Assembly (NCBI GenBank): GCA_024998685.1
Contig: JACOEH010000050.1
Coordinates: 1 to 34,126 of the forward strand
Length of the DNA stretch: 34,126 nt
Direction: 5' to 3'
From: Nitrospira sp.
GTDB lineage: Bacteria; Nitrospirota; Nitrospiria; Nitrospirales; Nitrospiraceae
Both the position numbers and the translations under genes were made by a program. This document shows positions 8,225 to 34,019 of the stretch, one piece after another. Below the pieces are notes generated by a model, which had not been told where the DNA came from, ran no database searches, and saw only the letters and a program-made list of their open reading frames with translations. Each line of letters opens with the position of its first letter. Position 1 is the first letter of the stretch.

Positions 8225-8282
8225 GTGCGTTGAAGTCCATTAACTGAACAACGCGACTCCCAGATATGACAAGGAGGGAAAG

Positions 8283-9785: not shown

Positions 9786-9862
9786 TCTCAGGGAGGGGCG
9801 GGGCCGAACCAGATATGGTGTCGGCTTCGCACCTCTTCCTGTTGAACAGGGATTCCTGGCAT

Positions 9863-11610: not shown

Positions 11611-11635
11611 AATAGACACAGAGGGAGGAGAGATC

Positions 11636-12013
11636 ATGGACGACAAGGTGATCGTCACCAATCGCAGCGCGCTGATGAAGAAGTATGGCCGTCAAGGAAC
11701 CGCAAAGATTCGCCAAGCCGTTCGCGCTTTGTCATCGGCAGACAAGAAACGGGGCATGAAGACTCGAACGGTGTACCTCGACGACGCGAAAGTCATGAAG
11801 AAGCTCGGTGGGAGATCAGTCACAAACGTGGCAGACCCTCGGGCCAATAAGGAGGCGATCGATGCAGTCTTCACGTCTCTTCAACGGGATTACCTGATGA
11901 TTCTTGGGGCGCCGGACGTGGTCCCGCATCAGGATCTCGATAATCCTATATATGATCCGGCGGATGGTGACGATGATACCAGAAGCGTGGGGCGATGTCC
12001 CGTACGCCTGTAA
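11636..12013 (+). CDS. C25/caspase-like protease, N-terminal part (frameshifted)
   Basis: A 125-residue fragment starting at ATG 11636 with GGGAGGAGAG upstream. It contains the N-terminal region and the LMILGAPDVVPHQDLDNP strand typical of the entry to C25 (gingipain-like) peptidase domains. It then leaves the expected frame and stops at 12011. Removing one G from the GGGG run at 11989-11992 restores SVGDVPYACKAPYSRD and joins it to the following frame, giving one 512-residue protein over 11636-13175. It is therefore best read as the first part of the next entry, unless the shift is real and inactivates the gene. Confidence 0.7.
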   Translation: MDDKVIVTNRSALMKKYGRQGTAKIRQAVRALSSADKKRGMKTRTVYLDDAKVMKKLGGRSVTNVADPRANKEAIDAVFTSLQRDYLMILGAPDVVPHQDLDNPIYDPADGDDDTRSVGRCPVRL

Positions 12014-13175: not shown

Positions 13176-13184
13176 GCCAAGGTT

Positions 13185-13436
13185 ATGAATGGCTCACAGC
13201 CGACTCCCGTGAAGGGCTTACGAGGCCGCGTAACGCGCGGCCTCTATGCCCAGGGCAGCAAGAGCGAACGCGAGGCGATCTTCCTAGAGACCGACAAGGG
13301 ACGGTACGTTCTACGCCGAAAGGGCGGCCCGGTTTTTGGCGATGCAGAGTTAGAGCAGTATGTAGGACGAGAAGTGAGCTGTGACGACTTTCTTGTCGGA
13401 AATAGCCTTCTGGCAGAAAGAATCACAGTTAGGTAG
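13185..13436 (+). CDS. Small hypothetical protein (83 aa)
   Basis: An 83-residue protein starting 9 bases after the caspase-like gene stop, with AAGG just upstream. It reads as a compact beta-rich domain (GLRGRVTRGLYAQGSKSERE, then FLETDKGRYVLRRKGG and ELEQYVGREVSCDDF), somewhat like an OB or small barrel fold. No family was recognised. Tight packing between the protease and TIR genes suggests an accessory or inhibitor of the protease, which is inference. Confidence 0.65.
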   Translation: MNGSQPTPVKGLRGRVTRGLYAQGSKSEREAIFLETDKGRYVLRRKGGPVFGDAELEQYVGREVSCDDFLVGNSLLAERITVR

Positions 13437-13469
13437 AACCACTTCAATACGTTGAGGGGTGATTTCGCC

Positions 13470-14900
13470 ATGCCGCAACCGAAGCAAGTCTTTATGAGTT
13501 ATCACTCGACCGACCTCGCTTTCGCCAGACGTCTCGACAGCGACCTGTTGAAGCGCGGCATCCAAGCCTCAATCGACGCAAGGTTTGTACCAGGGAAGTC
13601 CAGGCACTGGACGATCAAAGAGCAGATCTTGGCCACGGACTGCGTTATCGCCTGTCTATCACCTCAATACTTGGCGGACGAGTTTTCGCGGACGCAGCTC
13701 TTCATGGCGCGGGCCTACGGAAAGCGAGTCTTACCGATCCTCGTTGCGACTTTCACCCCTGGACAGAGCCCGCGCATTGATCTTCTCACAGCCGGTCAGA
13801 AGTACACGCATGCGATCAAAGGAATTGAGGAGTTGGATATTGCGGACTTCAGCGACGCCTATCCTGTGTGGGGCCTGGGTTCCTATGAGAAGAACTTTGA
13901 GAGATTGGTCGATGTGATCCAACCCGTACCCAAGCCGGCGCCGCTGAACTCCAAACTCATCTACGTCAGCTACAACTGGAAAGATGAACCATTCGCCATG
14001 CGGCTTGCCAAGGACCTGGAACTCGCTCGTGCCAACGTGTGGATCGATAAGCGGAACATCGAGATCGGGAGCCTCTGGCGCTCGGCGATGTACCAAGGAT
14101 TGCAGAAAGCAGACTATTTCATCGTGTGCCTGAACCCTGACGCGGCACGGAGCGACAACGTGAATCATGAGGTCCTTGTAGCGAATATGCGCAAGATTCC
14201 CATCTATCCCGTGGTCTCGGAGGGCATTTACCGAAGTCCGGACCTGATGGCGGAACTCAAGCATGCCCTCGCTGAATCGAGCGAAATGAAATCGCTGCTG
14301 GATCCGGTATGGTTCACGCCTGAAGTAAGCTACGAAACGATGCTCGATGATCTCAAGAAAGCGGTTGGTCTCGATCAGGCCTTGGAATCGCGCAGAGACG
14401 GCATCTTCATCTCGTATCGCCGAGCCGACAGTCAGGCGATCACGGGTCGTATTCATGAACACTTGGCTCGTGAATTCGGCGCTGAGAATGTATTTAAGGA
14501 TGTCGATACTATTCCTCCCGGTGCTGATTTCTCAGTATATTATCGGAAGTGGCTCACAGGCAGGGCCGCCGTAGTCTTGGTCGTTATGGGGAAGCTCTGG
14601 GCGACCATGAAAGAAGAGAACGATCCGAACTGCGTCACCCGTATCTGCAAAAATGGTGACCATGTGCGGATCGAGGTCGCGACAGCATTGCATCTAAAGG
14701 AGCTAACTGTACTGCCGGTTCTAGTGGACGAGGCCAAGATGCCGCAAAGTGCGGAGCTCCCACAAGACCTTATACGGCTCACCACAATAAATGGTCTTCT
14801 TGTTCGGCACGATCCCGACTTCGGGCGTGACATAGAAAGGTTAATTAAGGCCATCCGTGCAACGCAGCAGTCTAACTCGACAGCTCAAACTCAGGGGTAG
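13470..14900 (+). CDS. Triple TIR-domain protein
   Basis: A 476-residue protein starting at ATG 13470 (GAGG upstream; a TTG at 13452 is less likely). It holds three tandem TIR domains: TIR1 about residues 5-150 (VFMSYHSTDLAFARRL), TIR2 about 162-300 (LIYVSYNWKDEPFAMRL) and TIR3 about 311-465 (GIFISYRRADSQAITGRI). TIR domains in bacteria bind or hydrolyse NAD+ in antiphage and toxin systems. The likely catalytic Glu is present in TIR2 (Glu234, NHEVLVA) and TIR3 (Glu402, RIEVATA) but replaced by Gln76 in TIR1 (SRTQLFMA), so TIR1 may be a scaffold. It is the last gene of the + strand run and probably its effector or signalling output. Confidence 0.88.
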   Translation: MPQPKQVFMSYHSTDLAFARRLDSDLLKRGIQASIDARFVPGKSRHWTIKEQILATDCVIACLSPQYLADEFSRTQLFMARAYGKRVLPILVATFTPGQSPRIDLLTAGQKYTHAIKGIEELDIADFSDAYPVWGLGSYEKNFERLVDVIQPVPKPAPLNSKLIYVSYNWKDEPFAMRLAKDLELARANVWIDKRNIEIGSLWRSAMYQGLQKADYFIVCLNPDAARSDNVNHEVLVANMRKIPIYPVVSEGIYRSPDLMAELKHALAESSEMKSLLDPVWFTPEVSYETMLDDLKKAVGLDQALESRRDGIFISYRRADSQAITGRIHEHLAREFGAENVFKDVDTIPPGADFSVYYRKWLTGRAAVVLVVMGKLWATMKEENDPNCVTRICKNGDHVRIEVATALHLKELTVLPVLVDEAKMPQSAELPQDLIRLTTINGLLVRHDPDFGRDIERLIKAIRATQQSNSTAQTQG

Positions 14901-18785: not shown

Positions 18786-19043
18786 CTATCTAGCTACGCG
18801 GTCAAGGGAACCGTTCACCAGGCTCGGGTCCGCCTGAGTAGTGTCACCAGTCGTTCCATTGTCAGGTGCGATAGACTGGTCTTCAGCCTTGAGCTCTTCC
18901 TCCAAAACCTGAATCGCGCCGCTGATGCGCAGCAGGGTTTGGTGCAACGTCGCTTGTTGCTGCTCCAATTCCGTCGCGCGTGCTCGCCCAGCATGAAACT
19001 CCTTTTTCAATGCTTCCAGTCGTCGCTCTAATTGATCACGCAT
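18786..19043 (-). CDS. Short coiled-coil protein (85 aa)
   Basis: An 85-residue protein. Residues 1-52 form a strong heptad coiled coil (LERRLEALKKEFHAGRARAT onward, then LLRISGAIQVLEEELKAED). The last 30 residues are Ser, Thr, Gly and Asp rich and probably disordered. GAGGGAAG lies upstream of ATG 19043. It follows the tail-fibre-like gene by 39 bases, so it could be a chaperone or trimerisation aid for it. That is inference. Confidence 0.68.
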   Translation of the reverse strand: MRDQLERRLEALKKEFHAGRARATELEQQQATLHQTLLRISGAIQVLEEELKAEDQSIAPDNGTTGDTTQADPSLVNGSLDRVAR

Positions 19044-19082
19044 AAATTATCTTCCCTCTTGAAATCGAAACTCGTTCATGGC

Positions 19083-20315
19083 TCACGTGCCTATTACAAC
19101 GTACTGGATCATTACCGGAAGTGGGTCATTCTTATTCCAATCAAATTTCCATCTGATCATAAATGAGGTCGTATTAGATGGCTTGCATTCATACGTCGTG
19201 AAGATAGCGTTTCCCAAACCCGTATGAATTTCACTCGCTTTAGCAATAACGACGTAGGAATCTGTAGAAGTGAATGTTTCCCCATGTGGAAAAGTACTTA
19301 TCCAAGGGCCGTCATCCTTTTTATAATTAGCGCCAATGTTAATGACTCCGAACCGGATCTTTACATTGGCGATTCCTGGAACAACGGGAACATGCCCTTT
19401 TGTGGTGCTGATATCACCTCCGATCGTTAAGTCCCCCGCGCCAGTAACAGCCATCACTTCAGTGCCATCATGCCCGTTTTGCCTGATGGAGAATCGACCT
19501 CCGGCGGGCACAAACGCATTCAGGTTCCCGGAGTTGAGCCCCAACCCATAACGATCAGTGGGGCCATTGTCATAGATCACGATCTTGTTCCCCCCGCCGT
19601 TATCAAACTGCAGCTTACCGGCAACGGGCTCGGCTGTCCCAATACCGACGTTGCCGTCTGATTGCACAGTCAGCCGCCAGGCATTGCCATTCCAAAACCC
19701 AACTTTATTAGTCGAATGGCCACCAATAAAACGATCCCCAGCAACCCACAACCCTCCATCATTGTTATTGGACTGCAATCGACCATTCACAATCAGGTCG
19801 ATACTTGCACCCCCACCTCCTGCTACTTCTAATTTCCCGCCAGGACTCGTCGTCCCAATACCGACGTTGCCCGAGCTATCAATTAGAAGTCGATCGACCC
19901 CGTTATCCGCGTCCGTAATATGCAGGCTGCCAGAACCGGAATAAATGCCGTAGGTCTTCCCTCCTGGGGCCGTGTTCTTGAGCTGCAGGCCGGAGCCCCA
20001 GCCAGGCCCCGAGGAGTTCAAGACCAAAGCCACGTCATTCGTTGGCCCCTTGTCAATTTCCAATCCGGCACTCGGATTCGCTGTGCCAATACCAACATTC
20101 CCGCCAACGAAAGCAGTTTTTCCGTTAGGAGCGGTATTGCTGAACAAAAAGATCCCGTCCGATCCGCCATCGTATTCCACATCTGCACTCTTTGAGAAAA
20201 ATGTGAGGCGACCCTGGCCTGGCTGCACGAGTCCTTCTAGAGTTAGTTGGCCAGCTGGTTCCGGTGTTCCAATTGCCAACGGTCCTGAGATGTACCATTT
20301 GTCTGGGTTATCCAT
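19083..20315 (-). CDS. Tail-fibre-like protein with NVGIGT repeats
   Basis: A 410-residue glycine-rich beta protein. It carries the repeated motif NVGIGTxxP at several places (GNVGIGTANPSAGLEI, GNVGIGTTSPGGKLEV, GNVGIGTAEPVAGKLQF), which is typical of phage tail fibres and large bacterial surface adhesins that fold as trimeric beta helices. The usual S74 intramolecular chaperone end is absent. Instead the last 100 residues form a separate domain (KIRFGVINIGANYK to IQYVVIGT) with Thr, Tyr and Trp, possibly the binding tip. AAGGAG precedes ATG 20315. There is no signal peptide. It sits 42 bases after the 587-residue gene, so it probably belongs to the same complex. Confidence 0.78.
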   Translation of the reverse strand: MDNPDKWYISGPLAIGTPEPAGQLTLEGLVQPGQGRLTFFSKSADVEYDGGSDGIFLFSNTAPNGKTAFVGGNVGIGTANPSAGLEIDKGPTNDVALVLNSSGPGWGSGLQLKNTAPGGKTYGIYSGSGSLHITDADNGVDRLLIDSSGNVGIGTTSPGGKLEVAGGGGASIDLIVNGRLQSNNNDGGLWVAGDRFIGGHSTNKVGFWNGNAWRLTVQSDGNVGIGTAEPVAGKLQFDNGGGNKIVIYDNGPTDRYGLGLNSGNLNAFVPAGGRFSIRQNGHDGTEVMAVTGAGDLTIGGDISTTKGHVPVVPGIANVKIRFGVINIGANYKKDDGPWISTFPHGETFTSTDSYVVIAKASEIHTGLGNAIFTTYECKPSNTTSFMIRWKFDWNKNDPLPVMIQYVVIGT

Positions 20316-20357
20316 CAGTCGGCTCCTTTGATAAGAAAAAACTTCTTTTAGAAGTCC

Positions 20358-22121
20358 TCAACTTGGTTTCTGGTTGTCAGTATCTGGAGGTACAAGTTGA
20401 TCAAAGACCAGCCCACTTGACCCTTCGCCCCGTCCCACTTCATTCTTCCGTCCGACCCAGAGATAGGATTCGCCGTTGGTCCAACGGGTGTACTGATACG
20501 CTCGTGAAACGCGCACACCTTCGCGCGGCACTTCCTCGCCGTACAAAGGCTTCCCTGATTGGTTGACGGTCCAGAGCTCCGTCATGACTCGCCCCTTAGG
20601 CCGGCGACCGGTCGTGAGCCCGAGGTGGTTCCCATTGATCGGCACCGGCAGCATCGGTACCCAGTGGGAAGGGACTTCTGAGGCGAGCTTATAGAGCTTG
20701 ATCAGATTCGCGTCAGGCCCACCCGATGGAAGAGTCTTCTCCTTGCGGGAACGGAAGTAGGCCTCCGACTGATTGAGGGGACGGCCAAGGGCACCTTCAA
20801 TGGTTCGCTCCACCGCCCACACCATGTTCGCCATTTCGTCCCGCATGAACAGCACTTCTTCTATCGATTTGCCCTGCAGGCTCTTGCCTAAGGTCGGCGG
20901 AAGAAAGAGAGCGTCCGTCTTCGACTCATCGCCGGAAAGGTGAAATAGGTCCCAGGGAGCCAAGCTGGACGACGGATTTTTATCCTTTAACTTTTTATCA
21001 AATGCCCGCGTGGAAGGGATTGTAGTGGGCACACCAAACGTGTCCAATACCGTCAGGGTGTCCGTATAACAGAGCGTGCCGACGGGGAGCGTCACGGGAA
21101 TGATGAACCAATCATCACCGGAGACCAGTCCGAATTCGATCAAGAGCAAGTGGGCCAACTGTTGCTCGCCGGCGGCGATCGCGCCGAAGTCAACTTTGGC
21201 ATCTTCGAATTCCCAATAGCGCGAAACCGGCATGCCGGGAAAACGAACTGGTGTGGGGATCAGTGAGAGTGTCCGCTTGCGGTTGGGATCCGTATCGATC
21301 TTCGAGGCATCATCAAGCTGCGCCCCCAGCGACGCGCCGCCGACGGCATCGAAGGAATACCAGTCCAAATGCTCGTCCGCATATTCGGTCGCATTGAGGA
21401 CAACCTCCCCCTTCGGCGTCGACGCAGCAATCATAGCTTGGTACTCCAAGCGTGGGGGAACCCATGACGAGTCTTGTGTTTCATAAAAGAGCCGGTCGTA
21501 CCAGGTCCCCCAACTTTTGATCGTTGCTTGGACGGCAGCCTGATGTTGTGTAGGAACTCCAGACCATGACTGAACACCTGCGCGAAGCAACCGGCCATCA
21601 GGAACCCGCCCGCTCATGACTTCAATAAAACGGACCGCCTCCGAGTCCCAGCGCTTCTTCTCCTCTTCGGTGAGATCCGTCAGCGGATTCTTCAGGGGAA
21701 AATCGGCGATCGCCTTCGCGCGAAGCTCCCCCGCCCCATTGACGTTTAGGAGCCGAAGAAAATGCAGACCGGCCTCGGCCGCAAGGCGAAGAGGCGGAAA
21801 GCTGCCTTCTGCGTTACGCACCGTTTCTTGCTCGACCAATGTTTCCAGCGGGACCGATCCATTAAGTGTCTGACCCACCACGTTGACTTGAGATGGTGGC
21901 TTGTCTTGTGGATGCAGGTGGTAGCGCGTGATGGGGGTATAGGTGACGTTGAGATCGGCCCAAATCGGCGAGCCCGCATCTTCTCCCCAGAATTCTAGTA
22001 ATTGCCACTGCCGGGCCAACAGCCACAGCGGATCGTGGACCTCGGCATTCAATCCATACTGAAGACTGGGATCACGGGAGTACGGTTCTAAACGAGTCCA
22101 TCTAGGGTTCAGTGCGTCCAT
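20358..22121 (-). CDS. Large conserved-looking hypothetical protein (587 aa)
   Basis: A 587-residue protein of unknown function with no signal peptide or membrane segment. The N-terminus MDALNPRWTRLEPYSRDPSL leads into a Trp/Arg-rich patch (LWLLARQWQLLEFWGEDAGSP, residues about 32-52) that I recall from uncharacterised proteins in other bacteria. The middle contains RYWEFEDAKVDFG and WFIIPVTLPVG; the C-terminus contains SYLWVGRKNEVGRGEGSSGL. It starts 6 bases after the 1353-residue gene stops, and AAAGGAAAC inside that gene's end is its ribosome site, so the two are translationally linked. It is likely structural; that is inference. Confidence 0.75.
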   Translation of the reverse strand: MDALNPRWTRLEPYSRDPSLQYGLNAEVHDPLWLLARQWQLLEFWGEDAGSPIWADLNVTYTPITRYHLHPQDKPPSQVNVVGQTLNGSVPLETLVEQETVRNAEGSFPPLRLAAEAGLHFLRLLNVNGAGELRAKAIADFPLKNPLTDLTEEEKKRWDSEAVRFIEVMSGRVPDGRLLRAGVQSWSGVPTQHQAAVQATIKSWGTWYDRLFYETQDSSWVPPRLEYQAMIAASTPKGEVVLNATEYADEHLDWYSFDAVGGASLGAQLDDASKIDTDPNRKRTLSLIPTPVRFPGMPVSRYWEFEDAKVDFGAIAAGEQQLAHLLLIEFGLVSGDDWFIIPVTLPVGTLCYTDTLTVLDTFGVPTTIPSTRAFDKKLKDKNPSSSLAPWDLFHLSGDESKTDALFLPPTLGKSLQGKSIEEVLFMRDEMANMVWAVERTIEGALGRPLNQSEAYFRSRKEKTLPSGGPDANLIKLYKLASEVPSHWVPMLPVPINGNHLGLTTGRRPKGRVMTELWTVNQSGKPLYGEEVPREGVRVSRAYQYTRWTNGESYLWVGRKNEVGRGEGSSGLVFDQLVPPDTDNQKPS

Positions 22122-22127
22122 GGCGGA

Positions 22128-25100
22128 TTACTGGTTTCCTTTCGACAGGTACGAACGGATCGTGTCAGGAAATTTGTCTGAATCGACGTACATCGCCGGC
22201 AGATATTGCCCGAGTTCTCCTAAGGCCGTGAGATCGACGGCGCGCAGTTTGGCGAGTTCCAATGTCTCGCGTAGCGTGTTTTCCAGTCTTGTGGGATCCC
22301 ACTGGTCCACGCCGTCCGGCACCACGGCGAGCAGGAGCGCTTGGGGAGCGCGTGGCTGCGGCGCATCGTAATGGAACGTGAGACCCGTCACCTCTTCTTT
22401 GTTTGGAACTGATTCAACCCATTCCTCAACCATCAATCCCGCGAGCGGCTTGGTAAAGTCCTTCACTGTGGTGAGACAGGCGAGAGAGAGACGATTACCT
22501 TGCGGAGGATTCTCTAAAGCCACCCACCGTTCCCCATCTCCATAGGGCAGCTGACCGATCTGAAAATTGAGCGAAGGCCCATTCAGCGCTTCCGCATATT
22601 GCATCGTGGTATCAAGCCGAGCGGCTCCGTCTCGCACACGGGCGATCCGTTGGAACCAGGTGATCGAGGCCAAGGGATCGCCACCTTGCCACGCGGTTGA
22701 TTTGGCAAACGTCTGGCTCAGATCTTTCCCATTGTCGGGTGTGAACGCCGGGACGACTCGAAAATCTTCCCCAAAAATTGCTTTGAGCACCTCGAGACCC
22801 TGAGCCGTGGTTGTAATCGATGTCGATACCGCTTGAGCACGCTGCTGACGATTCTGCGCTTCACTCAAGACAGCACGTGCCTGCGCATGCAACTGTTTCA
22901 GCGCGGCATCGCTCGTATCTGTCGGGTTAGGTGGAATGGCTCCCAAGGCGCCATAGGAGGCGAGCCCGATCAGGGCTTGTCGAACAGCCGGGGGATCAGC
23001 GAGCGGAGTTTCGGGCTTCTCAGGCAGCTTGGTGCGTAATAGGTCAACGGCCTTGAGAAAGGCGTCTTGTACAGCGGTGGCTCTGGCGACCAGGGATTGA
23101 TCCAAGGGCCATGCGGCATCGATGGCCGCCTGCTCGGGCAACTGGACATCACGCGGTTCTAGGGCACGCGCACCGGTGAGGAGTCGCCGGATGGTCCGCG
23201 CCACCTCCACGATTTCACCAAGACTCGGAGGGACGCCACCATCTGATCTCTCAAATCCCAAGCAGATGTCGGTGATCGGCGGCTTGTCGCTTTTGTCCTT
23301 CTGGACAAAATACAGAATCCGTTGCTCGATTTCCGACTGTTTGCCGCCTACCTCTCCATCCAGTAGATAAACAAGATCCAAAGGGGCAAGTTTAAGATCC
23401 TCGATGGTGACATTCAGAAACTGCAGCTTTGAGTTTTCGATATATGTGACCGTACAAAATGCCTTCTCAGCTTGTGGTCCAAGCAATTGAGCCGCCCAGG
23501 CATTGAGCAGCGGCTCCGCTTGGGCTCTGGGTGTTGTAATGCTCCACGGCACTGGAGTTGGCGGAGTCGGCAGCGCACTAAAGATCATGCTGATCCGATG
23601 GGTATGGTTGATCCCCGTACGCGGTGTTCGAACGAACTCGAGTTCTGGAGGCGGCGTTTCTCCCCTCGTGATGGCTTCCAAGGTCGCCCCAGCCCGGACA
23701 TGATTGCCTTGGGCGACATGATGGACCGATTCGGCCAGGACGAGATCAGCCACGGCGTCGAGGGCCTCTTCGAGGCGATCGACTTCGGGTTGGCATTGCC
23801 ATCTATCTATGAGTTCGGGGAGTTCTGGAGGGATCGGTTTTTCTGGCACGTCGGGGATTGGGTCCGGCGGGTCGGACGGGTTCTTCAGTTTTTTGTAAAT
23901 TTTGTAACTCGTTAAGAGCGCTAATCCATCGAGCACCAGGTGACTGAGCTTTTTCTGGGTCTCTTTGCTTGGATCAGCTGTGGAAATGAGCTCGGTTGAG
24001 CCTGGAAATAATTCGCGAAACTTTGGAATAGAACCGTCCTTATTATTCTCATGCAGCGCCCGCTCGAACCGATAGCCCAACAGGGTTCCGAGTGATTGGC
24101 CTCCGCGCACGCCATCTACGAGATGCAAGGCAAGGCGGATCCGATCGGAGGTCAGATTAATGGCCAAGGCATTGCCGTCAGTGTTGTCTGGAGGGGTGTC
24201 ACGCGATCGTCGTGTCAGGTACCCGCTGCGCAGAATGGCGGCCGTCGTGGCATGTGCGAGGGATGGGGCATGGATGTAAGCATCAGGATCCTTATTAACA
24301 GTACCCTTGTTCCCCTGGTTCGGATCCTCGTTATCAGTATCTTTGTTCTGGTCCGGCTCAAGATTCTGGACCCAGCCATACCCGCCAATAGAGAGCCCTA
24401 TGGGTGGTGGCGTGGGAGGTTGCGTGGGTCGTGGATTTCGGAGTTCGTCCAGTCGCTTCGTCGCCAGGGAGGTAATCCACGCATCCAGTCGATGCGAGCA
24501 AAGATCCAATGTCTCCCGCAACAACAACTCACGGGCCGCCTTTGGGAATGCTCCGAAGTCGCCGGAAGCCGTAAGAAGGTTGAAGAGAAAGATATGGCCG
24601 TTTGCTCCGAAGTCGCCATCTTCGTCCGACGATGAACGCAGAAGAAAAAGTCCAGAGGGAGAGGTAAAGACTGTACGTTGATGTGGGGTCACGGTGTCGT
24701 TCCCGAGCATGGCGTCCAGGGCAGTCTGAAGCTCGGTAGGTGAGGGAACTCTTCCGGTCTTTTTCCGACCTTCATCGCTTGTAGGGGACGACACCGCCAC
24801 AATCCTGGTACAGTTCCGTCCGACATAGTCGATACCTGTCGGGGTCATTGCCAGGACTTGCAGAAGCGTGTCGCTGTTGTTTTTCTGTTGTTCCGGGGTC
24901 TGTGGTCGATCCAGTCGAGGGACATGTTTCAGTGACTTACGCCAAATCTCCCGTAGGGCACGCAGACAGGCGACCGGATTGGGCAGGGCCGTCTGGTTAT
25001 TACCTTCGGCGAGCGCCATCACAGGGAGCACTCCATAGGGCTGGGTCCCAATTCGCAGGGCGGGAAGAGGACCACGGGCGCGCACGTAGTCCACGAAGTG

Positions 25101-26189
25101 GCCCTTCATCTTGTTGTCGATATCATTCTGGTGCGAGTCCTTGAGCGCCAACATTTCTTTGAGAAAATATCCCCAGGTGGCCTCCCAGAGCATGTCATTC
25201 ATATCGCGAGCAGCCCGTTGCTCCTGCGTAATAGCATCTTGCACGTTGACCAAGATTGTTGGATTAATGTTCAGGGCCTCAGCCATGACTGCATAGTTCG
25301 GCTTGGAGCCAGGCTCTGTCAAAGCCGTTTGCTGCCGCTCGATCTCGAAGCTGTCGACCGCTTCCGAGCTGTATCCGGAGGATGCACTGATCGTGTTATT
25401 CGTGGGGGTCCCTTGAGAAACGAACCCGAGACCTTGCGTGTAATGGTGAGCCTCAAGCGCCTTCTCCAAACGCTGCTTTGCATCTTCGACCTTCAGCGAA
25501 GCCTTGACGCCATAGACAAACAATTGGTCGATTTTCCACTTACTGCCGGGCAAGTCTATTGTTAAGCCCATTCCTATCTGCTCCGCCCTGGCAAAGTTCA
25601 CGAGCCATCCGACATGGGGATCATCTTTGAATTTGTCCGGAGTGAGGCCTTCCTCCAACCGTGGCATCACGAAGATGCGGTCCGAACCACCTTCGTATTT
25701 GATATTGTTTCCCCGTTTAAAAAGTGTGTCGGACTTTAAGTCGCCATTCTCTTCATAAGAGAAAAGTCCGCTCGCTACCCAATAGTCAGGTAAGAGTTCC
25801 GTGCAAGCTGTATGAGCAGTCCTGGGATCAACCAGCTTCTCCGCCTGATTCGTCGTTTCTTGCTTGGCGATCCAAGCGGCGCGCTGGGGGCCGAACACTT
25901 GTACCAACTGCTTCCAGGCATTCCGCTCTTTGGCTTTGCGCGCTTCAGGATCGGGTTCATTCTTGGCGAGTTTGGTTTGCTGCCAAAAGCGTGTTCTCCA
26001 TTCGATCTCGACCTCGGTCAAGCGTGGCTCAAAGGAATCCACATGCACTGCGTCCGGATACACGCGAACGAGGAGCTGGTTGCCACGAAACCGTGTCTCC
26101 AATCGCACCGGCAGCAAGAGAAGTGGGACGGTGGTTGTGACATCAAAAGCAATGGCCTGAGGGGCCTTGGTTGACGATGTTGATGGCAT
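22128..26189 (-). CDS. Very large hypothetical protein (1353 aa)
   Basis: A 1353-residue soluble protein of unknown function. It starts MPSTSSTKAPQAIAFDVTTT, then VPLLLLPVRLETRF, with no signal peptide. Visible patches are PALRIGTQPYGVLPVMAL (about residue 380), a helical region near residues 1090-1140 (DAALKQLHAQARAVLSEAQN) and a C-terminal domain with FHYDAPQPRAPQALLLAVVP. The start has only a weak ribosome site and lies 22 bases after the LamG gene stop. It shares size, lack of export signal and close spacing with its neighbours, suggesting subunits of one large complex. No enzyme motif was recognised. Confidence 0.75.
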   Translation of the reverse strand: MPSTSSTKAPQAIAFDVTTTVPLLLLPVRLETRFRGNQLLVRVYPDAVHVDSFEPRLTEVEIEWRTRFWQQTKLAKNEPDPEARKAKERNAWKQLVQVFGPQRAAWIAKQETTNQAEKLVDPRTAHTACTELLPDYWVASGLFSYEENGDLKSDTLFKRGNNIKYEGGSDRIFVMPRLEEGLTPDKFKDDPHVGWLVNFARAEQIGMGLTIDLPGSKWKIDQLFVYGVKASLKVEDAKQRLEKALEAHHYTQGLGFVSQGTPTNNTISASSGYSSEAVDSFEIERQQTALTEPGSKPNYAVMAEALNINPTILVNVQDAITQEQRAARDMNDMLWEATWGYFLKEMLALKDSHQNDIDNKMKGHFVDYVRARGPLPALRIGTQPYGVLPVMALAEGNNQTALPNPVACLRALREIWRKSLKHVPRLDRPQTPEQQKNNSDTLLQVLAMTPTGIDYVGRNCTRIVAVSSPTSDEGRKKTGRVPSPTELQTALDAMLGNDTVTPHQRTVFTSPSGLFLLRSSSDEDGDFGANGHIFLFNLLTASGDFGAFPKAARELLLRETLDLCSHRLDAWITSLATKRLDELRNPRPTQPPTPPPIGLSIGGYGWVQNLEPDQNKDTDNEDPNQGNKGTVNKDPDAYIHAPSLAHATTAAILRSGYLTRRSRDTPPDNTDGNALAINLTSDRIRLALHLVDGVRGGQSLGTLLGYRFERALHENNKDGSIPKFRELFPGSTELISTADPSKETQKKLSHLVLDGLALLTSYKIYKKLKNPSDPPDPIPDVPEKPIPPELPELIDRWQCQPEVDRLEEALDAVADLVLAESVHHVAQGNHVRAGATLEAITRGETPPPELEFVRTPRTGINHTHRISMIFSALPTPPTPVPWSITTPRAQAEPLLNAWAAQLLGPQAEKAFCTVTYIENSKLQFLNVTIEDLKLAPLDLVYLLDGEVGGKQSEIEQRILYFVQKDKSDKPPITDICLGFERSDGGVPPSLGEIVEVARTIRRLLTGARALEPRDVQLPEQAAIDAAWPLDQSLVARATAVQDAFLKAVDLLRTKLPEKPETPLADPPAVRQALIGLASYGALGAIPPNPTDTSDAALKQLHAQARAVLSEAQNRQQRAQAVSTSITTTAQGLEVLKAIFGEDFRVVPAFTPDNGKDLSQTFAKSTAWQGGDPLASITWFQRIARVRDGAARLDTTMQYAEALNGPSLNFQIGQLPYGDGERWVALENPPQGNRLSLACLTTVKDFTKPLAGLMVEEWVESVPNKEEVTGLTFHYDAPQPRAPQALLLAVVPDGVDQWDPTRLENTLRETLELAKLRAVDLTALGELGQYLPAMYVDSDKFPDTIRSYLSKGNQ

Positions 26190-26211
26190 AGTGAGTCCAG
26201 GACTTCCTGTC

Positions 26212-29200
26212 TTACGGTTGTGGTTCCATTGGAGGTTTGTCCGGTTCCTTCACAACCTTGATTTCCTGATAGAACCTTTCCCGAAGGATGTTGCCGGCGA
26301 TCTCTGCGCTGGTTTTTAATGCACGTGGAAAAGACACGTAGGCACCATCCGTAGCATCCGGAGCGCCCATGTACGGCTCCGTGAAATGTTCCTCCACGAA
26401 AAATTTCCAATCTTTTATTTCTGTCTTTGCGATGGTGAATCCCACAAGCGCCACACCTGTGATGGGCGAGAACCGTGGGGAGGGAAGGCGCAGTTCGGCC
26501 CCGTTTCGGGCATAGATGAGCGCATTGGGATAGCGAACGATCAGTTCGCTGCGGATCAAGAGGAATGTGAGACCAGCACCCCGACCTGAGGCGAGATGAT
26601 CACCGAGGTCCAGAGGCTTACCGTCCTTCTCGTTTTCCCAATCACCGATCGACTTCGGGATATCAGGATATTGCGAATCATCGCCTCGCGCATCCCAGAA
26701 CTGTCGGAAGTAGGGCACATTCAACATGGTGGGGAATTCACGCCAGAGGAATTCACGGCTGAGTTCATGGTTCAGCCCCACCATATAGGCCTCAATGAAC
26801 GGCGCATCCACCGTGAGCGTCGTCGCTCGATCATTAGGAATCTTGTCGAGACCCGGCAGCAGCATCTCGGGGAACTGATCCCGCAACGGCTCATACATGG
26901 GGTTGGAGAAAGACGGCGCATAGGTGAATGGGGCGAGCTCTCCATGCTGTTGAAAACGCTCCTCTTGCGATCCGGCCTTTTTAAGGCGAGGTTGGTCCGG
27001 ACGTTTTACCCGATGAGCAACTTCCTGCGCGAAGATCTTTTGTGGATCGGTCCGTTTCAGCCAGTCTTGTTTGAGACTGTCAAGGCGCGAGACATCGGTC
27101 CTTGCCGCTTTGGTGACGGTGGGGGAAGCTTTAGAGAGACTGTTTCTGGATACAGACCTGTCTCCTTCCCTTACCCCTGGTGGTGGGGCAATGCGATCCG
27201 GATCGTAGTCACTAATGGTTCCCTTGATGGACCACGATCGACCGGCTCGGGTCATGCGGCGGAACTGTGGGATGATGGCGACCTGTTCCAATGGGGTCAG
27301 TGGGAATGCGGCCACCGCATGCGCTCGAATGCGATCGGCGGACAGGGCTCGGTCATAGATGGCCACTTCATCGATGAGGCCCTTGAACGGCCGTGCTCGG
27401 CCCACTTGGTTTCCTATGCCGATGTCACTGCGTTGTCCAAAGCTCATAAATACGTCGCCTTTGACCACGGTCGAATTGTCCAAGACCCCATCGATGTACA
27501 GGCCCATGGTGCTTCCGTCATACGCGCCAACCAGATGGACCGGAACACCAATGGTCACTTTCCCTCGGCTTGTGAGTCCAACGGGTTCATTTCGCGTGGT
27601 AATGGTAAGCTCAAACAGGACGCTGCCGTCAGGATTCACATTCAACCCATAGGTTGGCCAGCTGGGTGAGGCTCCGGAGTAAGATTTCTCGACGATTCGT
27701 TGTTGGTAGGGATTGGGGCCATGCCAACTGATGAGTGCCTCGATACTAATCCGTGTTGGGCTCAATAGTTGTGTCTCGGGGACGACGATGCGGCCGTCAT
27801 CGAGCCCTTCAAATTCAGCGGCAGCATCATTCTGCCCTGCATTGGATACTCCCAACATGACCCCCTGAGCTGAGACCGTCCCGCTATGATTGTGACCCGA
27901 TGAATCCCGCACAGTGGGGGACCCTTGGGTTTCATTGAAACGGTAGTACGCAACCGGTCGATCGGCGAGGACTGTTGCGGCAAAGCTAGTCAGTGGCTCA
28001 TCGGTCTGCTGAGCTGACGGCGCTGATGTGCCGGCTTTGGCCGCTGCATCTCTGGATCTGCTGCGCGCGCTCTTCATCTGAGTGTGAGGGAGCTGTCGAA
28101 AACCGGCCTTGGTGGAATTGAGAGAATCGTTCACCGGAAGCGGCACCGGCTCCGTCACTTGCAAAAAGGCATAGGGCGAGAGGGAAGTCAGCCGCTTCTT
28201 GTGAATCGAGTCGGTAACATGGCGGGCAAACTCCTTGCGCTGCAGGAATTCGTTCACTGCCTGCAACTCTCCGACTTCTTTCCAGACCGCCGCGATGATA
28301 TGTTCCTGCTCCTTTTGGATAATGCTGGTGCCGAGCGCCGCCGCGACACGATACCGTGGGTCGAGATTCAAGGTCTCCAACCATAGATGAGTATCCAGTT
28401 GTGTTGAGAGATCGGCGGGCGGAGCATGCCAGCTGCCATAGACTGGTGGAGGAAGTGGAGGGTTTTTATCCTTCGCTTCCGGAAAGCTAGTGAGGAGTGT
28501 TTTCAGCGCCTTTTGGTCAAAGCCAGCGGGTAAATCGTCTGTCGATGACGAAGTCGTGTCTGTGGAAATCCGCAGTGCACTGGGAATCGATACGGTGAGC
28601 GAGGTATTGGAAGGCTCTATACCGTTTTCCGGATTAGTGATGTCCATCTTGCCGGCGATACCCGGGTGAACGATCTTTGCTTCATCATCACTGAGCGGCT
28701 TCAGCTGTTGCGCGAGCTTGATGAACTGATCCTTATCGGCCGTGCTGAACGACCAATGGTAATAGACGGGTAATTGCACGTCCTTGTCTTCCTTGAAGGA
28801 CCAATGGGCGAGGGGTTCCTGATCTGGGTCGAATTCCATTCCCAAGCCCGCTTTGCGTCCCACTTCGAAGGCCGGGACCAGGCAAGCTTCATACTGTGTG
28901 TGTGCCTTGAGTTTGCGCGGGCACAGGAGACGGGAGAGATTCCGATCCTGTGGGTCACTTTGTAAGAGGGCTCCGATAATCTCGGCCTTAGATCTATTGG
29001 GTCTATTGTCATCTATGACTTTACCGGCGTACACGCCGTGGGCCCAGGCCCAGGATTCATTCAGGTCAGTGAACACCTTATCCGGCGGTTCTTTGTCCGG
29101 TGGTTCCTTCCGATGCGGCAACTCTGTGACGGGACAACTCAACACCGGAAGTCGGTTGTCGGTCGGCGGGGTAATCGTAGCCTGGCTTTTCTCCACCACG

Positions 29201-29604
29201 AGGAGGACGAGCCAGGGGTGGAGACGGTCCTTGCTCTGCGCGCCTGGAGTGAAGAGCCAGGGGAAATCCGGGCGGTCGAATTCGATGAAGGTAAACCGTT
29301 CCGGCGGATAGTCGGGCGTCAGATGCAGCGGTCCGGTGCGGATGATCTCGCGGACATCGATACCGACTACGTCTCTCGGACCGTAGAGTTGTACTGGGTC
29401 TTCGTCGGGCGGAGTCGCGGCGTCCTTCGGCTTCACCACTTGTTGTGAAATTGTCCCATCGGTCTTCTTGGCCTTCAAGGTGATGGTCACGGGAAGCGAG
29501 ATCCGACCTGATACGTCCGGCAAGGTGTCGTTTCCCAAGTCCGGCGTCGTGATCAGTCGAGCCATGCCGGAACGGACCCACGGTAGAAAATAATAGGTGC
29601 TCAC
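26212..29604 (-). CDS. Very large hypothetical protein with inserted LamG domain (1130 aa)
   Basis: A 1130-residue protein starting at GTG 29604, which overlaps the previous stop as GTGA; an in-frame ATG at 29643 is less likely. The translation begins VSTYYFLPWVRSGMARLITT. Residues about 540-765 form a LamG/concanavalin-like domain (VAYYRFNETQG, then GAYDGSTMGLYIDGVLD and GLIDEVAIYDRALSADRI), which usually binds sugars or proteins. The parts on each side look like one continuous domain into which LamG has been inserted. The C-terminus ends in a long fold with GLTFLLIRSELIVRYPNAL. No signal peptide is seen. It is translationally coupled to the DUF6603-like gene. Confidence 0.78.
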   Translation of the reverse strand: MSTYYFLPWVRSGMARLITTPDLGNDTLPDVSGRISLPVTITLKAKKTDGTISQQVVKPKDAATPPDEDPVQLYGPRDVVGIDVREIIRTGPLHLTPDYPPERFTFIEFDRPDFPWLFTPGAQSKDRLHPWLVLLVVEKSQATITPPTDNRLPVLSCPVTELPHRKEPPDKEPPDKVFTDLNESWAWAHGVYAGKVIDDNRPNRSKAEIIGALLQSDPQDRNLSRLLCPRKLKAHTQYEACLVPAFEVGRKAGLGMEFDPDQEPLAHWSFKEDKDVQLPVYYHWSFSTADKDQFIKLAQQLKPLSDDEAKIVHPGIAGKMDITNPENGIEPSNTSLTVSIPSALRISTDTTSSSTDDLPAGFDQKALKTLLTSFPEAKDKNPPLPPPVYGSWHAPPADLSTQLDTHLWLETLNLDPRYRVAAALGTSIIQKEQEHIIAAVWKEVGELQAVNEFLQRKEFARHVTDSIHKKRLTSLSPYAFLQVTEPVPLPVNDSLNSTKAGFRQLPHTQMKSARSRSRDAAAKAGTSAPSAQQTDEPLTSFAATVLADRPVAYYRFNETQGSPTVRDSSGHNHSGTVSAQGVMLGVSNAGQNDAAAEFEGLDDGRIVVPETQLLSPTRISIEALISWHGPNPYQQRIVEKSYSGASPSWPTYGLNVNPDGSVLFELTITTRNEPVGLTSRGKVTIGVPVHLVGAYDGSTMGLYIDGVLDNSTVVKGDVFMSFGQRSDIGIGNQVGRARPFKGLIDEVAIYDRALSADRIRAHAVAAFPLTPLEQVAIIPQFRRMTRAGRSWSIKGTISDYDPDRIAPPPGVREGDRSVSRNSLSKASPTVTKAARTDVSRLDSLKQDWLKRTDPQKIFAQEVAHRVKRPDQPRLKKAGSQEERFQQHGELAPFTYAPSFSNPMYEPLRDQFPEMLLPGLDKIPNDRATTLTVDAPFIEAYMVGLNHELSREFLWREFPTMLNVPYFRQFWDARGDDSQYPDIPKSIGDWENEKDGKPLDLGDHLASGRGAGLTFLLIRSELIVRYPNALIYARNGAELRLPSPRFSPITGVALVGFTIAKTEIKDWKFFVEEHFTEPYMGAPDATDGAYVSFPRALKTSAEIAGNILRERFYQEIKVVKEPDKPPMEPQP

Positions 29605-32600
29605 CGTGCACCTCGTGTCGCACCGATCTTCGGCACCACCCACGTCCGTCGGCGGGGAGCACGTTGTCGGGCCTGGACCGTCCGCGCCAGGGCCGCGGAG
29701 TAGCTCATGACCGGCTCGGCGATTGCCGCCATGTCGTCCATGGCTTCTTCGAAGAGATTGGATGGAGATGGCGTTCCGGCTCGTCGGGTCGCCCGCGCGT
29801 TCGGTTCCGTACTGTCATCCTCTTCGCCCACCACACGATATTCCGCTTTGCCCAGCGTGATACCCTGATCCCACCAGGTAGGATCCCCATACTTGGCTGC
29901 TCCCGCCGCGCGAATCGGCGCTTGCCCTGCGGCGCCGAGGTGAGCCACTTGATCCAGGTATGTTGCCGCTTTCAGGTCCGATGGCCCATTCTTAGACTGG
30001 GCTGCTTTTATTTCGCGCGACACCGGTTCCCCGCAGGTAATGCCATCTTCGGCCTTTACGCGGAGTCCAGAATCTTTTTCCTCAAAGGAGGGCGCTGACA
30101 GTTTCTGGTCATCCGACATGACATAGAACTGGGCGAGCGCAAACCAATCAGAAAGGTCAGAGACGGTCAGCGCGGATGTGCTCGGTGTTTTCTCCTTCTC
30201 CGTGACTTCGAGTGCAAAGGTGGTGGCTCCCGTCGGAGTCGTCGTCCCATATCGGGTAATGGGATCGGCATTCAATGGGACCAGACGTTGGTTGATGTGC
30301 AGCTCCGCAAGGGGATGGACTAAGACTTTCTTTTTTGGCGGTGCGGCGGCCGGATCCTTGGGCGGAATCGAGTCACGGAACGTAACTAATGGATGCTCTC
30401 CTACCGGCAACTGTGAGGACCAGTTGCTGGCCTTTTGCAACTCCTCCAGCAATTTCTCTTCGACGTTGATCGGCGGAGGAAGGTGCGGCGGCTCTGCGGG
30501 GCCGGTGACCACCGAGAACTCGGCTGATTGTTTCATGCCTAAGATCTCAAAGTACGCTTTCCCCCATGCATGCCAGGGGGAGGGCCCGGTCAGATTCATT
30601 TGCAGTCCGACGGACAGCAAATTGAAGCCTTCCCAGGAGACGGCCACCATGGCTTCAAATGACGCGATCAGTCCGAAGGGCTGGAATTGAATGAGTGCGT
30701 CGAATGCCAACAGCCCGACGACTTTGCCACCCCCGATTCGTGCCAGGAGATCGAGATGGGCGCCAAACTGCACCGTATTCGAAGTCAACGCGAAATAGGC
30801 GGAGAGCTGGAGTCGCACTTCGACGTCACCCTCACGCTTATTCAGGCTGATGGCGACCCGATCGATAGATGGAAATCCAGCCGGGACCTGAAAGGCGGGA
30901 TGGAAGCCGCCGACCGAGAGGAGGAACATAGGCCTCGCACCGAAGCTGGCCCGTAACGCCATGCCTCCGGTGATGGTAAAGGGGCCGATGGTGGAATCAT
31001 ACAAATAGGCGTCCAGTGAGATATCCCCGCTCCCGAAATCGATGATGCCCAGGGAATCGAGCTGGAGTTTGATCTTTGGGGTGTCTTGCCTTTTCTCCTC
31101 ACCGTCAGTTCCTGAGCCTCCGGCTTGACTCGACTCGTCCGATTTACCGGGGAGTGTGACACTCAGCCGGCCTAGGATGATCAGACGAACCGGATCGGGC
31201 AATTCCAAAATGATGCCGATCTCCATCGACAGAATCGGCGGCGAGCCGCCCCAGCCGATAATGGCCATGGGGCCAAAGAGGAATCGGTCTTGCGCCGATG
31301 GAAAAATGGCGGAGAGGTTGCTGATGATCTGCGGTGCGTTCTCGACGACGTTCTGCGGAAAGAGAATCGATCCCAATGCACCTCGGCGCAGCCCATCTCG
31401 CAGCACCTCGGTCGTGACCGTTCGATTGACGCCGAGCAGACCACCGAGACCGTTGAGGCTAAACCCATAGCCGAGTTGGATTCCGGGATCGAAACGGACA
31501 GAGATAATGACAAGGAGTGAAAAGCCTGGTTTGCCATCCGGCATCTTCGTGGTCAGGAGACCTACGGCTGTGAGGGAAAACTTTTGGGCGATCTCCAGTT
31601 GCAAGACCCCGGCGTACTGTTCCTTCTCAAAGTCGAAGTAGAGATAGCCGCCCCCGGTGACCACCTGGGCCTTTATAGAAAGGCCAATACCTTTTGGACC
31701 GCTCAGGCGAAAATCGATTGAGACAGGACCAAATTCACCTGCTCCTTTGGACGGTTTTGTTGAAATCTGCAAGCCAATATCCTGAACGACTCCGAATACA
31801 GGTCCGAGTCGTAGCTCGATGTTGGTAGACGCACCCAATGCAATTCCGTCTGTCCTCAGTTGTGCCCGGAGCGTAAATGGGCCAATACGGACTCCAGCGA
31901 GTTGGAGATAACTCTCAAAAGTCTTTTCCGCACCTACACCCGCGTTAAATTGTATTCCATGTCTGAGCGATACCGTAAATCCTATATCAGCTTCTAAAAG
32001 AGCGGAGTTAGTGGTTGGGAGATTTTGGGATATGAATGAGTCTCGACCATCTGCTTGTAGCTTGAAACGTAATCCGCGCAGAGCAAATTTTCCAGTAATG
32101 TCTGGAGGATCTTGTGCGGTTAGAGTTAACGATACCTCAATGGCATCAACAGAGAGAACTGGTGCAGTAGCCGACCCAACAAACAAAGCCTTTCCACCTG
32201 TCTGGATGCCAGGCATGGCAAATTGCAATGCGATTGATGGAGGTTCAGAGTCAGAAGACCCAGGCGTCTCTATTTTGTTTCGACCAAACAAGATTGCACG
32301 AGGGAGATGATTGATGAGAAGCGAGGCACTTGCCGAAGGGGTTCCATATGAGAAGCGTAGATTTCCGGATGTACCTATTAAGAGAGCTGGGCCGGAACCA
32401 TCTGACGCGGGGACAATACCTGCTATCAGGCGCTGTAGGCTTAATGCCTCTTCTTCGTTGCTGATCGTGGGTATCCAGCAATTTACGATCAGTAATCGCT
32501 GGGTAGCATCGACTCGTTCTTGGGAGGGGCTCGCACCGGTTCGTATTGTTAACCCGCCATAGCTGGCTTCAACTCCCATATTGTTGAGTAGGTCTGCCAC

Positions 32601-33218
32601 CAGTGGCAACAAGACGTCGGCTAGGGCTTCTGCAGGGACTTGATTGCCAGTTTCGTCTCGGCTCATCTTTTCGATGTTGCCGAGAGGATTTTGCAGGGCA
32701 TCAGCTACTCGGTTGAATCTTAGGCGGGCATCAAGTGTTTCCCGGCGAACCGTTCTGTTTCCAGAAGTGATAGCGGTTCCGGTCGTGAGATCGAGAATCC
32801 CAAGAAGCACTAGCAAGCCTCTCAGGATGGGATAGTTTCTGCTAAGGTAAGTATCGAGAAGGCCGTTGGTTAGATCGTCTATCAGACGACTGCCGGTGTT
32901 TGATGGAAGCGACTGCGGGACTGACCAGTGCGACAACACGTCTACCAGACGTAAAACCTCAGTGCGAACCGCTAAGATGCTGGAAGTCGCTTGCGTGATG
33001 CCATCAGACCCTTTGGAAACGAGAGTATCCACTGCTTCGCGGAGAGCAGCGGCAACTTTAATTAGCGCTTGGAGGTCGAGCCCACTCAGAGCATCGAGAT
33101 TCCATCCTAACGAACCCACAAAGGACTGTAGTTTCGCTGGATCATCTTTGACATCGGTCAAGGGGCTCAGGAGAGTGGCGAGTTCTTCCTTAATGATTGT
33201 TTCAAAGGGACGGTCCAT
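29601..33218 (-). CDS. Very large DUF6603-like protein (1205 aa)
   Basis: A 1205-residue protein with a helical N-terminus (FETIIKEELATLLSPL) and a very long glycine-rich beta central part (about residues 330-900), with many amphipathic strands such as GGGYLYFDFEKEQYAGVLQL and FLFGPMAIIGWGGSPPILSM. The composition and FGP/GWG patches recall the uncharacterised DUF6603 family, named from memory. No signal peptide is present. The C-terminal 250 residues are Pro/Lys rich and end in an Arg-rich tail (QARQRAPRRRTW). The first part of the gene looks AT-richer than the rest. It starts 9 bases after the upstream gene and overlaps the next start by 4 bases. Function unknown. Confidence 0.76.
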   Translation of the reverse strand: MDRPFETIIKEELATLLSPLTDVKDDPAKLQSFVGSLGWNLDALSGLDLQALIKVAAALREAVDTLVSKGSDGITQATSSILAVRTEVLRLVDVLSHWSVPQSLPSNTGSRLIDDLTNGLLDTYLSRNYPILRGLLVLLGILDLTTGTAITSGNRTVRRETLDARLRFNRVADALQNPLGNIEKMSRDETGNQVPAEALADVLLPLVADLLNNMGVEASYGGLTIRTGASPSQERVDATQRLLIVNCWIPTISNEEEALSLQRLIAGIVPASDGSGPALLIGTSGNLRFSYGTPSASASLLINHLPRAILFGRNKIETPGSSDSEPPSIALQFAMPGIQTGGKALFVGSATAPVLSVDAIEVSLTLTAQDPPDITGKFALRGLRFKLQADGRDSFISQNLPTTNSALLEADIGFTVSLRHGIQFNAGVGAEKTFESYLQLAGVRIGPFTLRAQLRTDGIALGASTNIELRLGPVFGVVQDIGLQISTKPSKGAGEFGPVSIDFRLSGPKGIGLSIKAQVVTGGGYLYFDFEKEQYAGVLQLEIAQKFSLTAVGLLTTKMPDGKPGFSLLVIISVRFDPGIQLGYGFSLNGLGGLLGVNRTVTTEVLRDGLRRGALGSILFPQNVVENAPQIISNLSAIFPSAQDRFLFGPMAIIGWGGSPPILSMEIGIILELPDPVRLIILGRLSVTLPGKSDESSQAGGSGTDGEEKRQDTPKIKLQLDSLGIIDFGSGDISLDAYLYDSTIGPFTITGGMALRASFGARPMFLLSVGGFHPAFQVPAGFPSIDRVAISLNKREGDVEVRLQLSAYFALTSNTVQFGAHLDLLARIGGGKVVGLLAFDALIQFQPFGLIASFEAMVAVSWEGFNLLSVGLQMNLTGPSPWHAWGKAYFEILGMKQSAEFSVVTGPAEPPHLPPPINVEEKLLEELQKASNWSSQLPVGEHPLVTFRDSIPPKDPAAAPPKKKVLVHPLAELHINQRLVPLNADPITRYGTTTPTGATTFALEVTEKEKTPSTSALTVSDLSDWFALAQFYVMSDDQKLSAPSFEEKDSGLRVKAEDGITCGEPVSREIKAAQSKNGPSDLKAATYLDQVAHLGAAGQAPIRAAGAAKYGDPTWWDQGITLGKAEYRVVGEEDDSTEPNARATRRAGTPSPSNLFEEAMDDMAAIAEPVMSYSAALARTVQARQRAPRRRTWVVPKIGATRGAR

Positions 33219-33227
33219 ATTGTGAAA

Positions 33228-34019
33228 TCAATCTACCGGAGTGGTAGCGATGACATTACCTATTTCCTTGAACCATTTCCTCATGGTCCAATTATTATCT
33301 CCATCAAAATCCCTGGAAGTATCCATTAACTTAGTGAATCGTTCTTCGTAGAGCTTCTCGATCTCATCCAGAAGGCGTTTTGTTGCCGTACGCATTCGTT
33401 CCCCTTTCAGCTCCCCTGGAAAAGCAGCTCGCACGTCCTTATCAATATTGGCGAGCGCGGTGGTTACACTTTCTAGTCGTTGCTCTGGAGGTAGGTGTTC
33501 AAGAATTCCTGGCAATGAGGTACCTTCCTCCCTTAATCGTGCTAATAGCATCAGGTTGCCTCTGTGTTCTAACCGTGTCAGATTTACTGCGGGCATCCTG
33601 TACTTCTGGTCGAAAATGTGCTGTAGAAGTGGCCATCGCTCGAGAAGGTTGGCCGGAACAAAATGGTGCGCTTCTAAACCACAATGAACGATGAAGGTAG
33701 TAGAAGCATTAGGACTTTGCTCGCCCACTTGCCTAATAATTTCTCGCGCCAAAACGTTAATAACTTCGTTTTTTTCTTTTAGGTCGTCGTAGAGAGAAAT
33801 CTTAAGATAGCCCTCTTCAAAATAATGAAAAAATATTGGGGTGTATGCATGATAAATAGACCCGATCTTCTTTCCCTGTTCTACTACCCGCCCCGAATGG
33901 TTTTTGACTCTGAGCATCCGCTTACTCCACCTTCGTTCTCTCTCTATGTCGTCTAGGTGTCTAATCATCTTCTGGATGAACGCCTCGACAACGAGGCCTA
34001 ATTGTGTTACACGAGCCAT
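33228..34019 (-). CDS. Hypothetical protein with AHH/HNH-like motif (263 aa)
   Basis: A 263-residue protein, first visible gene of the - strand run, with AAAGG about 7 bases before ATG 34019. The stretch GLEAHHFVPANLLERWP (residues about 114-130) followed by VNLTRLEHRGN (Asn146, His152) resembles the A-H-H and Asn/His metal-binding positions of AHH/HNH (ENDO VII) nucleases. The match is partial and the final His is uncertain, so this may be an inactive relative or coincidence. The flanks are helical and charged. Base composition looks AT-richer than the following genes, hinting at separate origin. Confidence 0.6.
   Translation of the reverse strand: MARVTQLGLVVEAFIQKMIRHLDDIERERRWSKRMLRVKNHSGRVVEQGKKIGSIYHAYTPIFFHYFEEGYLKISLYDDLKEKNEVINVLAREIIRQVGEQSPNASTTFIVHCGLEAHHFVPANLLERWPLLQHIFDQKYRMPAVNLTRLEHRGNLMLLARLREEGTSLPGILEHLPPEQRLESVTTALANIDKDVRAAFPGELKGERMRTATKRLLDEIEKLYEERFTKLMDTSRDFDGDNNWTMRKWFKEIGNVIATTPVD

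Follow-up and report, generated by a model that had tools for sequence, protein, structure and literature searches.

A conserved four-gene core with an exchangeable cassette of putative enzyme and adaptor in Nitrospira and other prokaryotes

The window analysed here is the entire contig C79 (34,126 nucleotides; GenBank JACOEH010000050.1) of a 4.8 Mb genome of Nitrospira sp., and its subject is a cluster of seven adjacent genes on the minus strand encoding proteins of 263, 1205, 1130, 1353, 587, 410 and 85 amino acids (aa). These are designated Z (protein P0001), A, B, C and D, followed by the genes for a fibre-like protein and a probable coiled-coil protein (Table 1). A first description made from the DNA letters, hereafter the sequence-only reading, had listed seven co-oriented genes of these lengths with gaps of 42 bases or less and one 4-base overlap, and the spacings measured in order from Z to the 85-aa gene (9, -4, 22, 6, 42 and 39 bases) agree with it. 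It had set the cluster start at 19083, which leaves out the 85-aa gene; the seven genes span 18786-34019. The 1130-aa length of B depends on a GTG start at position 29604. A terminator-like inverted repeat lies directly upstream of Z near the contig end, so that Z is probably the first gene of the cluster.

Protein A scores 404 bits against the DUF6603 family (PF20248), for which the curated Pfam cut-off is 27, and is thus a full member of a family that the sequence-only reading had missed; the LamG protein and the tail-fibre-like protein that it had proposed are both recovered by profile matches. No curated Pfam or NCBIfam family is matched at cut-off by C, D, Z or the 85-aa protein, and B matches no curated family outside its LamG insert. 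The Pfam matches of the 85-aa protein are of a generic coiled-coil type and were discounted.

Table 1. Features of the cluster and of the adjoining genes, in positions of the window (L numbers denote other loci with the cluster)
Feature	Position	Strand	Basis or remark
Z, variable putative cargo slot, P0001, 263 aa, AHH/HNH-nuclease-like motif	33228..34019	-	slot position; motif by eye
A, 1205 aa, DUF6603 protein	29601..33218	-	PF20248 1.1e-120; AlphaFold2 (AF2) model; conserved core
A N-terminal half, residues 1-500, putative cargo-specific adaptor	31719..33218	-	exchanged with Z; covariation; guanine-cytosine (GC) content
Exchange junction within A, residues ~500-525	31644..31721	-	recurs in window/L039, L088/L093, L081/L085
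B, 1130 aa core protein, variable central insert	26212..29604	-	core family; insert site
LamG (concanavalin-like) domain inserted in B, residues 604-759	27328..27795	-	PF13385 1.5e-21
C, 1353 aa core protein, without known family	22128..26189	-	
D, 587 aa core protein, without known family or fold match	20358..22121	-	
Fibre-like protein, 410 aa, GIGT repeats	19083..20315	-	phrog_18345 3.5e-13; relatives in L039, L040
Probable coiled-coil protein, 85 aa	18786..19043	-	same-place relatives in L039, L040, L074
TIR-NACHT protein with hydrophobic segments	15156-18065	-	adjoins cluster
Triple-TIR protein	13452-14900	+	back to back with TIR-NACHT gene

A search of a genome collection with C returned 447 relatives, of which 80 were kept, and eight records added through plasmid and phage searches bring the total to 88 loci, at which the genes are mechanically called open reading frames. 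All four of A, B, C and D are recovered by iterated profiles in 71 of these, most of the others being cut by contig ends. The order and strand of A-B-C-D are constant throughout the loci, often with 4-base stop/start overlaps, and one acidobacterial locus (L042) has a C-D fusion. Given the 88 loci elsewhere that are collinear on one strand, the clustering is far beyond chance. The unit of seven genes recognised by the sequence-only reading is a real co-inherited system, except that the 263-aa gene occupies a variable slot and is not a constant part of it, and that the fibre-like gene is a diverging addition to the core. The hosts belong to about 12 bacterial phyla (Nitrospirota, Pseudomonadota, Acidobacteriota, Cyanobacteriota, Actinomycetota, Myxococcota, Bacillota, Chloroflexota, Verrucomicrobiota, Bacteroidota, Gemmatimonadota and the candidate phylum Goldiibacteriota) and include three haloarchaea, each with all four genes. 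Among the relatives found in the genome collection, those closest to the window C are from Nitrospira. Across 296 genomes of the window's phylum, C is present in 28, all 28 of which also have A and D; A is present in 30 and D in 29, the extra D being a fragment. Two genomes contain DUF6603 without detected C or D (G189:C7:738366-739739 and G210:C86), and these could be stand-alone, divergent or broken clusters.

In a tree of D, the window is grouped with full support with Nitrospira LK70, Nitrosomonas and the actinomycete Citricoccus. The fibre-like gene is common to the window, Nitrospira LK70 and Nitrosomonas, the small coiled-coil gene is common to all four, and the Citricoccus gene in the fibre position starts, by eye, with the same WYxSGP stretch. 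This suggests that the whole module has moved between phyla, subject to the caution that binned contigs call for. Profile comparison for a common ancestry of B, C and D gave nothing for B and just a weak local similarity between C and D (E 7e-4, probability 26%), and such an ancestry was rejected. The literature search, outside which preprints and most subscription papers lay, found no paper that names DUF6603 or PF20248, no description of the system and nothing that links DUF6603 with a B-C-D platform or with the exchange of cassettes.

Loci differ in the gene that immediately precedes A. Its products, of which 49 were compared and which are named by family match only, include PhoD-like phosphatase (15), peptidase M64 (6), phospholipase D (PLD; 5), subtilase (4), trypsin-like protein (2), and Het-C, DUF2515, a peptidoglycan-binding domain and a beta-lactamase-like protein (1 each). 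Z overlaps A by 4 bases in 20 of 48 cases. In several Nitrospira two cassettes stand in series, as PLD-A-subtilase-A-B or PLD-A-M64-A-B, with cargo types assigned by similarity to family-typed loci; the tandem-cassette clusters L134, L135 and L138 have one more gene, of 269-345 aa, between B and C. P0001 itself is an orphan: searches of the plasmid collection and of the other 197 genomes covered in the phylum gave no relative. Its 'EAHH...NL...H' stretch resembles, by eye and as a lead, the AHH/HNH nuclease motif described in PMC3482391. The possibility that the true cargo of the window is the PLD of L039, placed on another contig, was dismissed because the genome holds no close copy of it. 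A PhoD gene is found on contig C105 of the same genome. In L054, L061 and L109, A has a long extension at its N-terminus that matches no family, which neither supports nor refutes a fusion of Z to A.

Comparison of closely related loci shows that the N-terminal half of A changes together with Z. Counted per 100 residues, the identity between the A proteins of the window and L039 is 22-33% as far as residue 500 and 74-91% beyond it. For B, C, D and the small protein it is 72-77%, and the Z proteins are unrelated. For L088 and L093, in which Z is a PLD and a PhoD-cluster protein, respectively, the C-terminal half of A is 88% identical and the N-terminal half 17%; for L081 and L085, in which Z is represented by two distant members of the subtilase cluster, the values are 91% and 29%, and the junction falls at residues ~500-525 in both pairs. 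In control pairs with similar Z (L078/L085, L079/L083, L043/L044 and L100/L115) the N-terminal half is 84-93% identical, and so it is not simply fast-evolving. Among pairs whose C-terminal halves are at least 60% identical, the N-terminal half averages 63.5% identity in the 10 pairs with homologous Z and 20.5% in the 13 pairs whose Z proteins are not homologous, and over 22 close pairs the identity of the N-terminal half follows that of Z with a Spearman coefficient of 0.91. When the C-terminal half is controlled for, the partial rank correlation between Z and the N-terminal half over all 1128 pairs is 0.28, more than in any of 500 permutations (maximum 0.22), and the correlation of the C-terminal half with Z given the N-terminal half is 0.04, or almost none. 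The GC content in the window is 45% for P0001, 50% for the N-terminal half of A and 55-58% for the platform, a further difference between cassette and platform.

By sequence comparison, then, the system has a constant four-gene core, a slot for varying predicted enzymes and a wide spread; the co-exchange of Z with the N-terminal half of A at a recurrent junction and the tandem cassettes indicate that Z and A together make up a unit that can be exchanged and stacked on a constant B-C-D. That this modularity is one of cargo and cognate adaptor is very probable, and it suggests an undescribed machine that carries enzymes to targets.

Variable inserts are also seen in the core proteins. At one site, B carries LamG in the window, FG-GAP repeats in Micromonospora and Polyangium and unassigned inserts elsewhere, LamG being present in 2 of 42 B proteins. 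In Caulobacter, D has PA14 and a sub-threshold F5/8C match; the D of Polyangium has a Kelch propeller, and a lamin-tail domain is annotated in D of haloarchaea. C has a decapeptide-repeat insert in Halalkalicoccus and an annotated BGTF domain in haloarchaea. The downstream genes include fibres, WD40 propellers and PQQ propellers. The identity of the window fibre with that of L039 drops from 48% at the start to ~22% near the end, as would be expected if the fibre were anchored and its tip diversifying. The end of the downstream fibre of a Chloroflexota cluster (L064:9287-10264) resembles, by eye, an S74 tail-fibre chaperone. Since the slot enzymes are hydrolases, the inserts are of carbohydrate- or surface-binding types and no immunity gene is seen, the cluster might instead encode an enzyme scaffold, anchored at the surface or released, that serves feeding or matrix processing by digesting environmental phospholipids, phosphoesters and proteins and does not attack other cells. 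However, no leader peptide is seen, and the rapid exchange of cargo with its cognate adaptor and the diverging fibre tip resemble conflict more than housekeeping, so that this explanation is unlikely.

The AF2 model of A has a helical N-terminal region followed by a long antiparallel beta meander at residues ~430-905, in which hydrophobicity alternates strongly. Its Foldseek matches include apoB-100 (2e-3) and LptD (about 9e-3), and the likeness to porins, ushers, LptD and apoB is loose, with root-mean-square deviations mostly above 10. Matches of the A profile to the PDB, mostly designed helical bundles that hit the N-terminal helices, were taken as chance. Because the hosts include Gram-positive bacteria and archaea and no leader peptide is seen, A is not a normal outer-membrane protein. 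These Foldseek matches, the amphipathic strands of A and the presence of PhoD and PLD in the slot would fit a lipid-handling complex, in which the slot enzymes process lipid carried in a large hydrophobic groove or barrel of beta structure formed by DUF6603. Such a role is improbable, since M64 and S8 peptidases fill the same slot on the same platform and the exchange pattern fits cargo specificity, not a single lipid pathway. The model of D is good (predicted local distance difference test score of 80), but neither solved nor viral structures give a convincing match to it (best Foldseek E 0.057, best Z score 4.9).

The sequence-only reading had recognised no secretion signal, and a Kyte-Doolittle scan agrees, with a strongly hydrophobic N-terminal segment in none of the seven proteins. 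The absence of an export signal would also suit an intracellular immune or suicide system, in which the platform senses an invader through the binding parts of B or D and frees the enzyme in the producer. In keeping with this, the TIR-NACHT gene lies downstream of the window cluster with the triple-TIR gene beyond it, and a TPR-S gene precedes one cluster. Even so, no PADLOC model matches the core (none for P0001-P0007), and parts of the LamG, PA14 and fibre-like kinds usually occur outside cells. No relative of the window TIR and NACHT genes turns up at the other A-B-C-D loci, on which ground a defence-island reading of the adjoining TIR-NACHT and triple-TIR genes was set aside. A conflict system acting inside the producer is thus decidedly unlikely.

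A divergent phage tail, prophage remnant, contractile injection system or Tc toxin would account for the fibre-like gene and for one relative in a record labelled Bacteriophage sp. The sequence-only reading had judged the cluster not recognisable as a phage tail or contractile system, and no tail, sheath, tube or Tc family is found in the seven proteins; D is unlike viral structures, the model of D matches no tail or toxin fold and that of A recalls only large beta-barrels and sheets. A pattern search of the IMG/VR viral contigs yields no relative of D, and the scanned neighbours of the 'phage' copy are not phage structural genes. An origin of this kind is highly improbable and was rejected. 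The copy concerned (L034, MT835531.1), from faeces, has A-B-C-D beside a dehydrogenase-like gene, with no recognised phage structural gene among those scanned, and is probably bacterial DNA in a virome.

The proposed cargo platform resembles several described systems in part. In polymorphic toxin systems, diverse enzyme domains are swapped onto a constant carrier through recombination (PMC3482391), and variable enzymes exchanged on a constant carrier are likewise found here. Those toxins swap the C-terminal tip, whereas here a separate upstream gene and the N-terminal half of the next protein change, no immunity gene is identified in the gene maps and no known trafficking family includes the carrier proteins. 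Umbrella particles of Streptomyces consist of a secreted toxin protein with ALF repeats together with UmbA and UmbB (PMC11062931), and recall the proposed platform in the idea of a non-contractile assembly with a variable toxin and diverse lectins on a scaffold; by their description they would differ, as Pfam reports no repeat family for the core proteins here, which are of other families. Extracellular contractile injection systems and tailocins share a fibre-like protein, the lack of leader peptides and variable cargo, but no sheath, tube, baseplate or spike family (Pfam, NCBIfam and PHROGs) occurs in the seven proteins. Tc toxins similarly have several giant proteins, enzyme cargo and a beta-rich carrier, but no TcA, TcB, SpvB or RHS domain is present in the seven proteins. 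The cluster would work like a polymorphic toxin carrier and, by the tests made, lies outside the contractile, Tc and phage families. Other contigs of the same genome do hold such genes: phage-sheath and gp25 on contig C12 (61673-78909), gp25 on contig C20 (32457-32759) and a TcdB-type gene (TcdB_toxin_midN) on contig C16 (1996-2307).

These comparisons are best explained by a polymorphic cargo platform that would act as follows. The constant assembly would consist of B, C, D and the part of A with DUF6603. An interchangeable enzyme, the cargo, would come from the gene that precedes A, and the N-terminal ~500 residues of A would bind their own enzyme as a docking adaptor, the two being swapped as one cassette through recombination at the conserved stretch inside A. 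Adhesion-type inserts in B, C or D, together with the downstream fibre or propeller gene, may aim the assembly at a surface. Since no signal peptide is seen, the assembly would leave the producer perhaps by lysis and bring the enzyme to other cells, and the amphipathic beta structure of A may touch or cross a membrane or shield the cargo. In this way the seven-gene set may build a particle, as the sequence-only reading had proposed. Several points weigh against the proposal. No particle is seen; the structural models cover A and D, of which D has no fold match, and lend no support to an assembly. Neither an export signal nor a known secretion partner is found, and the gene maps show no immunity gene and no recurrent small neighbour, although no family-by-family test was made. 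Many slot enzymes could be ordinary digestive enzymes. Moreover, the close pairs are not independent, and no more than about three of the exchange junctions clearly represent separate events. The proposal as a whole, with delivery included, is accordingly tentative, its chances falling a little short of even. A bolder form of it, a new class of non-contractile, fibre-bearing delivery particle of Bacteria and Archaea that carries cassettes of cognate enzyme and adaptor on a constant four-protein body and in which the beta-barrel-like DUF6603 half of A inserts in the target membrane and passes the enzyme, is doubtful. If the platform does deliver its cargo, a delivery or antagonism system of about a dozen bacterial phyla and haloarchaea would have been overlooked by current annotation, because B outside LamG, C and D of the window have no curated family. 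The cognate relation between Z and the N-terminal half of A would then give a testable prediction on cargo loading, and new effectors could be found by reading the gene upstream of the DUF6603 gene.

A second operon lies at 6245-13436 on the plus strand of the window and encodes a subtilase, a B-lectin-like protein, a 265-aa protein, a RimK-type ATP-grasp protein and a C25-like peptidase. The C-termini of the subtilase and the lectin protein are very similar ('...HFI.PELRPDL...'), and the 265-aa and ATP-grasp proteins may be a peptide-modifying pair. The C25-like peptidase (window 11576-13175) appears to be split over the overlapping plus-strand frames 11576-12013 and 11904-13175, and so its gene may be frameshifted here.

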